Notes under the pieces: generated by a model
Database searches by the model: none
What the model saw: only the letters and a program-made list of their open reading frames with translations
What the model was told of the DNA's origin: nothing
Part shown: piece by piece, positions 17,366 through 36,347 of the stretch
How the letters are laid out: every line of letters begins with the position of its first letter
Position numbering within the stretch: position 1 is the stretch's first letter
Program-made: the position numbers and the translations under genes
NCBI GenBank assembly: GCA_017938435.1
Contig: JAGBBO010000014.1
Location: 1 to 49,766, forward strand
Direction: 5' to 3'
From: Alphaproteobacteria bacterium
Lineage (GTDB): Bacteria > Pseudomonadota > Alphaproteobacteria > Rs-D84 > CACZYB01
DNA: 49,766 nt

Positions 17366-17830
17366 TTAAAAGGCATCCAATACCCGCTGTAAAATTTCGG
17401 CTGCCGCAACCTTGTCCAAAATAGCCTTCCGTTTTTTTCTACTCAAATCAAATTCACGAATAAGCATTTTCTCACTCATAGCCGAAGTCATACGCTCATC
17501 AGCAAAAACTATCTCCACATCTGGAATAAATTCAGAAAGTTTCTCTGCAAAATTTCGGACCTTACCTGCCGTTTCACCTTCCTCCCCATTCATTTGCAAC
17601 GGAAGTCCCAAAACAATAACAGCCACATCCATTTCATCAACAATTTTCTTAATTTCAGGAAATAAATCTTTATAACTCTTATTTTTAAGCATAGCATAAG
17701 GCGAAGCAATTTGTCGCCCCACATCAGAAACCGCCACCCCAATATTTACATCACCATAATCAATCCCTAAAAATCGCTTTTCAGTTGAAAAATATTTTTG
17801 TTTAAGGGTATTGAAAATATTATTTTGCAA
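17366..17830 (-). CDS. ruvX: Putative pre-16S rRNA nuclease / Holliday junction resolvase-like RuvX (YqgF)
   Basis: YqgF-family RNase H-fold nucleases finish 16S rRNA 5' ends, and some act on junction DNA. The 154-residue protein shows GIDYGDVNIGVAVSD (residues 23-37), FADERMTSAMSE and DKVAAAEILQRVLD, the three family motifs with their acidic residues. The Arg usual before IGVA is Asn here. The start codon is TTG (17828-17830), chosen because AGGAG lies 7 nt upstream and no ATG fits. It is divergent from the metallothionein-like gene. Confidence 0.93.
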   Translation of the reverse strand: MQNNIFNTLKQKYFSTEKRFLGIDYGDVNIGVAVSDVGRQIASPYAMLKNKSYKDLFPEIKKIVDEMDVAVIVLGLPLQMNGEEGETAGKVRNFAEKLSEFIPDVEIVFADERMTSAMSEKMLIREFDLSRKKRKAILDKVAAAEILQRVLDAF

Positions 17831-17906
17831 TGTTATACTCCTAATATGAATTATTTTTAATATAGTTCAGAAAATAAGGAATGTCAATCAACAAAAGGAG
17901 CTTAAA

Positions 17907-18278
17907 ATGGTTGCTAAAAAAACATCAAAAAAACCAGTTGCTAAAAAAACTGTAAAATCTGTTAAAGCTACAAAAGCTGTAAAATCTACTAAAAAAGTAG
18001 AAGTTGCACCAGTAGAAAACAAATGTGCTTGTTGTTCAGAATGCACATGTGGTGCAAATTGCACTTGTGGTAAAGATTGCAAATGTTGTTGTTGCAAACA
18101 CACAAAATTAAAACAATTCATCATTTTGTTAATGATTATCGCAGTAACCGTAATCACAACACTTGTTGTTGTTGGTCCACGTCCATGCTGTGGTAAAAAA
18201 CATCCACATGGTCCACGTCCATGTGAAAAAAAGGTTCCATGCCCACATATGCAAAAAATGATGGAAGCAAAAAAATAA
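17907..18278 (+). CDS. Membrane-anchored metallothionein-like protein
   Basis: No family is recognised, but the architecture is clear in the 123 residues. Residues 1-36 are a Lys/Val/Ala/Thr-rich tail. Residues 40-63 hold 12 cysteines in 24 positions, arranged in CxC, CC and CxxxC pairs and ending in CCCC, as in metallothioneins. Residues about 69-89 are one transmembrane helix (FIILLMIIAVTVITTLVVV). Residues 90-123 carry four more Cys and three His, in a repeated GPRPC setting. By the positive-inside rule the large Cys cluster and basic tail face the cytoplasm, and the His/Cys tail the periplasm. AAGGAG lies 7 nt before the ATG and a terminator follows. Metal storage, sensing or transfer is inferred. 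Confidence 0.75.
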   Translation: MVAKKTSKKPVAKKTVKSVKATKAVKSTKKVEVAPVENKCACCSECTCGANCTCGKDCKCCCCKHTKLKQFIILLMIIAVTVITTLVVVGPRPCCGKKHPHGPRPCEKKVPCPHMQKMMEAKK

Positions 18279-18309
18279 TTAAAAAAACAACAAATTTACT
18301 CATAAAAAG

Positions 18310-18336
18310 AAAGGGCATTGAAAAATGTCCTTTTTT
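18310..18336 (+). terminator. Rho-independent terminator
   Basis: A 10-bp stem with one G-T pair (18310-18319 with 18324-18333) is closed by a GAAA tetraloop. The 3' arm runs into a tract of six T. It ends the metallothionein-like gene. Confidence 0.87.
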
Positions 18337-18408: not shown

Positions 18409-18702
18409 ATGTATTTTACAAAAGAAAAAATTAAAAAAAACGCAAAACTTGTTCGTATAGGTATGCCTGATGAACTTGCTGAAAAAATGATACCTGAACT
18501 TGAAAATGTTATTGAATGGATTGAGGGTTTGGATGATGTAAATGTTGATGGTGTTGAACCCCTTATTTCCGTGAATGAACACGCACTTCCAAAACGCGTT
18601 GACACCATAAAGATGGAAAATACTCGTGATGAAGTTTTAACTAATGCCCCTTCACCTAATGAAGATGGCGAATTTTTCACTGTTCCAAAAATCATTGAGT
18701 AA
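18409..18702 (+). CDS. gatC: Asp-tRNA(Asn)/Glu-tRNA(Gln) amidotransferase subunit C
   Basis: GatC is the small subunit that stabilises GatA within the GatCAB complex, which converts misacylated Glu-tRNA(Gln) or Asp-tRNA(Asn) into the amide forms. The 97 residues have the family pattern: an N-terminal helix with KLVRIGMPDELAEKMIPELENVIEWI, then VDGVEPL, and the C-terminal LTNAPSPNEDGEFFTVPKIIE. GAGGAA lies a few bases before the ATG. It is first in an operon with secF rather than gatA and gatB, which must lie elsewhere. Confidence 0.93.
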   Translation: MYFTKEKIKKNAKLVRIGMPDELAEKMIPELENVIEWIEGLDDVNVDGVEPLISVNEHALPKRVDTIKMENTRDEVLTNAPSPNEDGEFFTVPKIIE

Positions 18703-35879: not shown

Positions 35880-36347
35880 ATGACATCTAAACATGATTAT
35901 ATTCAAGAAGCTGCATACTTCATTTGGCTTAACCGCGGTAAACCAGAAGGTCAAGATTTGGAAATCTGGGACGAAGCAACAAAAATTTATGAATTAACTC
36001 AAGAAGTTTTAAAACCTATTGCAAAGAAAGAAGTAAAATCTACAAAGAAAGTTGCAAAAAAGGTTACAAAAAAAACAACTGCAAAAAAATCAGTAAAAGT
36101 TGTAAAAGCAGTTGCTCCTGTTGTTGCTCCAAAGGCAAAAAAAGTTGTATCTGCTAAAAAAGTAGTTGCAAAAAAGGCTCCTGCAAAAAAGGTTACTGTT
36201 AAACCTGCTCCGAAAAAAGCAACAAAAACAACAGTAAAACCTGTTGAAGTTGCAAAAATTATGCCTATGGTAAAAAAGGGAACTTCTGCTAAAAAAACAG
36301 TTGCTCCTAAAACAAAAATTAAAATTGTTGTTGGAAGAAAAAAATAA
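35880..36347 (+). CDS. DUF2934 protein with histone-H1-like basic tail
   Basis: The 155 residues have two parts. Residues 1-50 match DUF2934 (IQEAAYFIWLNRGKPEGQDLEIWDEA), a small helical domain. Residues 51-155 are almost entirely Lys, Ala, Val, Pro and Thr in KKxxKK and APKKA patterns, like histone H1 or chlamydial HctB. It is therefore likely to bind DNA or RNA, possibly as a nucleoid protein, with the DUF2934 part as partner-binding module. AAGGAG lies before the ATG and a strong terminator follows. A hydrophobic-looking frame exists antisense to the tail but is a compositional shadow. Confidence 0.8.
   Translation: MTSKHDYIQEAAYFIWLNRGKPEGQDLEIWDEATKIYELTQEVLKPIAKKEVKSTKKVAKKVTKKTTAKKSVKVVKAVAPVVAPKAKKVVSAKKVVAKKAPAKKVTVKPAPKKATKTTVKPVEVAKIMPMVKKGTSAKKTVAPKTKIKIVVGRKK

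Follow-up and report, generated by a model that had tools for sequence, protein, structure and literature searches.

The open reading frame (ORF) examined here lies in a 49,766-nucleotide stretch of DNA (hereafter, the window) from a genome (G000) of the alphaproteobacterial order Rs-D84. It encodes a protein (P0001) with an extraordinarily cysteine-rich segment next to a membrane helix, which raises the question of what such a protein could be for. A first-pass annotation had pictured a membrane-anchored, metallothionein-like protein with metal ligands on both sides of the membrane, and the parts of that picture that concern the layout of the protein (Table 1) proved accurate. The cluster cysteines occupy positions 40, 42, 43, 46, 48, 52, 54, 58, 60, 61, 62, and 63, that is, 12 of 24 residues; the single helix that follows is recognized both by hydropathy (best 19-residue window starting at residue 71, mean 3.12) and by AlphaFold (helix at residues 61-88, block pLDDT 80-91 at residues 71-90); and the tail contains the expected cysteines (94, 95, 106, and 112), histidines (99, 101, and 114), and GPRPC repeats, with one more histidine (65) N-terminal of the helix. 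The confidence of the AlphaFold model is confined to the transmembrane (TM) helix, outside of which no fold is predicted save for a short, low-confidence C-terminal helix. Against the 1.17% Cys background of the other 45 window ORFs, the probability of at least 12 Cys in 24 residues is 1.6e-17; P0001 ranks highest among the 46 window ORFs, to which these statistics pertain, and the runner-up stretch of the same length contains 5 Cys.

Table 1. Features of the P0001 locus, with positions in the window
Feature	Position	Strand	Remark
Gene for P0001, membrane-anchored Cys-cluster protein, whole gene, 123 aa	17907..18278	+	
N-terminal tail, residues 1-39, rich in Lys (13), predicted to be disordered and to lie in the cytoplasm	17907..18023	+	low pLDDT
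Cys cluster, residues 40-63, 12 Cys, includes the conserved CxCGxxCxC core	18024..18095	+	
TM helix, residues ~71-89	18117..18173	+	hydropathy and AlphaFold
C-terminal tail, residues 90-123, predicted to be periplasmic, with 4 Cys, 3 His, and GPRPC twice	18174..18275	+	
Promoter-like TTGAAA-17-TATACT, TG ahead of the second hexamer	17811..17839	+	weak evidence
Intrinsic-terminator-like hairpin, then a T run	18307..18336	+	-14.5 kcal/mol, z -5.0
ruvX (yqgF), divergent neighbor kept with the P0001 gene across the window's family	17366..17830	-	
gatC, downstream neighbor, kept in G001 and G004	18409..18702	+	

This ORF is a genuine gene. It starts with ATG, with AAAAGGAG just before it, and has a good ribosome-binding site; the promoter-like site ahead of it and the hairpin and T run behind it suggest transcription as a unit of its own, the count of -10/-35-like sites in the region being near the shuffled (chance) expectation. 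Because its position is kept in congeners and its dN/dS relative to the counterpart in G004 is about 0.22 (Jukes-Cantor 0.146/0.656), P0001 is not the product of a chance ORF: the gene is under purifying selection, evolving faster than its neighbors ruvX (~0.05) and gatC (0.075) in the same comparison, with rapid change in everything but the core. The divergent pairing with ruvX is found in 9 of the 10 readable genomes of the window's family (G000, G001, G002, G004, G005, G006, G007, G009, and G010), with G008 as the exception; the G003 contig stops at ruvX. Synteny, conservation, and dN/dS together rule out a chance ORF or an antisense artefact. A phage or plasmid origin was considered as well and rejected, no phage or plasmid relative having been found.

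Database searches with P0001 gave no match in Pfam or NCBIfam, including any metallothionein model, and the sole match in PDB was a ribosome chain named ES31 (E 1.4). Homologues with the same order of parts, from a Lys-rich tail through a Cys cluster and TM helix to a C-terminal tail, are nevertheless abundant within the order. The family is matched in 177 of 201 order genomes, and in 118 of the 126 high-quality ones; 164 genomes pass E<=1e-15, and among the 13 weaker matches, at least one comes from a different protein whose N-terminus is similar. This 424-aa protein (L106, G011:C8) begins with a Lys-rich tail, followed by six Cys, a TM helix, and a large, unrelated periplasmic domain, with nothing in Pfam beyond a sub-threshold HC2 match. 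In 385 genomes of the class and 398 of the phylum sampled outside the order, there were no full-length matches, only partial ones to the EF-hand (see below) or to the N-terminal module. The family is undescribed and order-specific, occurring essentially nowhere else in the class and phylum sample.

The core shared by the family consists of a Lys-rich tail (8-21 Lys plus Arg in the 30 members counted), about four Cys, typically spaced as CxCGxxCxC, and one TM helix; P0001, with its short periplasmic part and well over the 3-4 Cys that define the family at a minimum, displays all of these features. Conservation of the cysteines, on which the metallothionein-like proposal was staked, holds throughout: all 66 distinct members read (one mis-extracted sequence, L059, excluded, and the G011 protein included) have 3-12 Cys before the helix. 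It is P0001 that has the most; its 12 Cys are a local expansion of a conserved core of about four, which is kept between distant genera and expanded as repeats.

Beyond the membrane, the family is far less uniform. In the order's main family, an EF-hand with Cys occupies the periplasmic side, and the corresponding DxDxDGCIxxxE loop is present in 56 of the 66 members; in the window's family, a short His/Cys/Gly-Pro tail stands in its place. Copies in the window's family span about 85-162 aa, with 4-12 Cys before the helix (the start is not fixed in G007 and G010), and most of their tails contain Gly-Pro, His, or Cys. The proteins of the family f5 (mostly genus g8) are about 120-190 aa long and end in the pattern GC...KCP...DxDxDGCIxxxE, which amounts to one EF-hand containing three conserved Cys; their genes lie next to xerC, smpB, or tatD, as named by sequence reading, at most of the inspected loci. 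AlphaFold gives an f5 representative a reasonably confident C-terminal domain, for which Foldseek returned only weak EF-hand resemblances, none at E<=0.001. Comparison of the window-family and f5 profiles yields a 97.9% probability over the Cys cluster and helix. Because both of these segments are compositionally biased, we ran a control of 500 shuffles in which the Cys segment, helix, and tail were kept separate; the best shuffle scored 15.0 bits against the f5 profile, compared to 19.9 for the window core, and none of the 500 reached that score, so the link is supported but modest. The tails of the two groups could have separate origins.

Several lines of evidence bear on the orientation of these proteins. 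The N-terminal side is more positive than the C-terminal side in 63 of the 66 members; in P0001, the 15-residue flanks are equally charged, and the whole-side net charges are 14 (N) and 7 (C). Given this bias, along with the DsbA-like and EF-hand C-terminal parts of relatives, an N-in orientation appears probable, which supports the earlier placement of the Cys cluster on the cytoplasmic face. The companion idea of a second, periplasmic metal site made of His and Cys fits the window's family alone, most relatives having an EF-hand instead; with three conserved Cys in that EF-hand, the periplasmic cysteines may be structural or disulfide-bonded.

The explanation that we favor, with a probability of about 0.58, is that P0001 is a membrane-tethered buffer of soft metals (Zn or Cu), with a cytoplasmic thiolate cluster and a separate extracytoplasmic site. 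Under this scenario, a single-pass inner-membrane protein would carry a metallothionein-like cluster on its cytoplasmic part that would bind ions of soft metals (Zn(II), Cu(I), or both), and the extracytoplasmic part, be it the His/Cys tail of P0001 or the Cys-containing EF-hand of most relatives, would be a separate ion-binding or structural element. The likely job of such a protein would be local metal buffering at the inner membrane, in a gut lineage with a reduced genome that appears to have been stripped of most of the standard metal exporters, importers, and regulators. If so, a near-universal, order-specific, metallothionein-like protein of the inner membrane would show a minimal gut bacterium handling metals by local buffering.

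The proposed setting agrees with gene content. Rs-D84 (Candidatus Enterousia) is a gut order with reduced genomes (PMC12306168). We surveyed four families with Pfam models in 26 genomes of the order and 14 control genomes. P-type ATPases (E1-E2 ATPase) are present in 5 of 26 order genomes (one below the cut-off) versus all 14 controls, CDF transporters in 5 of 26 versus 14 of 14, ZnuA in 1 of 26 versus 11 of 14, and FUR in 4 of 26 (one below the cut-off) versus 13 of 14. The Pfam search of G000, a genome that is 93% complete, found none of the four; because the genomes are incomplete, single absences mean little, and it is the overall pattern that is consistent.

The buffer reading has its counterpoints. 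The common core of about four Cys could represent one structural Zn site rather than a store, and the periplasmic Cys may form disulfides, DsbA-like proteins being present in 23 of the 26 surveyed genomes. Furthermore, the order includes a family, f6, from which both the Cys-cluster protein and the pumps are missing. A lack of pumps thus does not always call for the protein, a real objection to the notion that cells without pumps depend on it.

Cys clusters are also found on other proteins. In a second order (that of G567), an equivalent N-terminal module, comprising Lys residues, a Cys cluster, and a TM helix, is joined to a DsbA-like oxidoreductase; first met in two genomes of that order in the class search, the fusion is present in 42 of its 43 genomes (L113-L142), and each of the 29 readable N-termini has four or more Cys ahead of the helix. 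A pattern scan further uncovered, in G003, a GrpE protein (Pfam GrpE, 2e-43; L174, frame from 861, minus strand, G003:C2) whose N-terminus is extended by a Cys-rich stretch resembling a metallothionein. In G003, G005, and G002, small proteins (L175, L177, and L178, respectively) start with a hydrophobic segment (MCMMC...) and end in a tail rich in Cys and His; they represent, for the same genus, a second Cys cluster predicted to be associated with the membrane. Short ORFs for soluble, metallothionein-like proteins with CxCGxxC repeats (L179 in G009, L180 in G567, and L032) have no Pfam or NCBIfam match. Among the places inspected in the G000 pattern scan, only two coding matches were convincing: the window gene, and the gene for a long repeat protein rich in Cys (L173, G000:C29, minus strand), which is probably a surface protein and is truncated at both limits of the sequence examined. 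The clusters across all these proteins could reflect either shared ancestry or repeated origin. A broader scenario, and a rather doubtful one, is that the two orders, as alphaproteobacteria with reduced genomes, swapped classical metal homeostasis (pumps, importers, and regulators) for portable clusters of the metallothionein kind, each grafted to a different carrier: a membrane anchor that ends in an EF-hand or in His/Cys, a DsbA-like oxidoreductase, or GrpE. If this were the case, the activity or placement of the carriers would depend on the metal or thiol state of the cell. With its recurrence on DsbA-like proteins and GrpE, the Cys cluster would count as a portable domain.

Among the alternatives to metal buffering, the one that survives best, although we consider it unlikely, casts the Lys-rich tail as the working part, which would bind nucleic acid or ribosomes and tether them to the membrane; the Cys cluster would then be a structural knuckle holding Zn, and the part in the periplasm a sensor or anchor. 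The basic tail is indeed family-wide, the four-Cys core would fit one Zn, and three f5 members give sub-threshold matches to HC2 (histone H1-like). Low-complexity Lys tails are, however, prone to spurious H1-like matches. Elsewhere in the window, a DUF2934 protein (35880-36347, plus strand; Pfam 1.2e-11) continues into some 100 residues of Lys/Ala/Val/Thr-rich repeats that resemble the N-terminal tail of P0001. A tail of the same kind on this unrelated protein could be counted in favor of a working tail; such tails seem to be a lineage habit. The expansion to 12 Cys also goes beyond a structural need, and in the f95 DsbA fusions, the tail has shrunk to a few Lys while the cluster is retained.

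The fusions with DsbA-like oxidoreductases, nearly universal in the second order, and the cluster on the G003 GrpE speak for a different and quite improbable role, transmembrane sensing of thiol redox state or metals, whereby oxidation or metalation of the cytoplasmic cluster would alter whatever lies in the periplasm (a DsbA-like domain, an EF-hand, or a His/Cys tail). A single TM helix and a predicted disordered N-terminus count against such signaling, which comes without a partner or a coupling mechanism. That the basic, Cys-rich segment merely sets the N-in topology, with incidental cysteines, agrees with the strong positive-inside bias and the rapid evolution outside the core but is very improbable, given that the CxCGxxCxC spacing, which is not needed for charge, is kept across distant genera and that no architecture-preserving shuffle matches the window core score.

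Returning to the buffer reading, we found no open-access publication naming a membrane-anchored metallothionein, and none of the known systems compared here fits P0001 in full. CupA of Streptococcus is a membrane-anchored copper chaperone with a folded domain and two defined Cu sites (PMC7558416). P0001 resembles it as a predicted metal-binding protein at the membrane but, in place of a domain with two Cu(I) sites, has a Cys cluster without a predicted fold or a Pfam match. The likeness to EF-hand proteins resides in the DxDxDGCIxxxE loop that most relatives have outside the membrane; this loop is single and below the Pfam cut-off, and P0001 lacks it. DsbA/ScsC-like oxidoreductases are connected through the fusions in the second order, whereas P0001 has no such domain. 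The CxCGxxCxC-like spacing is shared with plant type 1/2 metallothioneins (Metallothio_2); at 22.4 bits, one f5 member falls just short of the 23-bit cut-off of that model, and some members give sub-threshold matches. There is no common architecture, and the resemblance is most likely convergent. Small size and solubility are considered typical of metallothioneins. P0001 has their descriptive trait, a Cys-dense segment with repeated CxC, but departs from solubility by virtue of one strong TM helix. The bacterial metallothioneins SmtA/BmtA and MymT, thought to bind several soft metal ions, have a similar short, Cys-dense cytoplasmic segment in a small, non-membrane protein, to which P0001 adds a TM helix, a Lys tail, and a predicted extracytoplasmic part.
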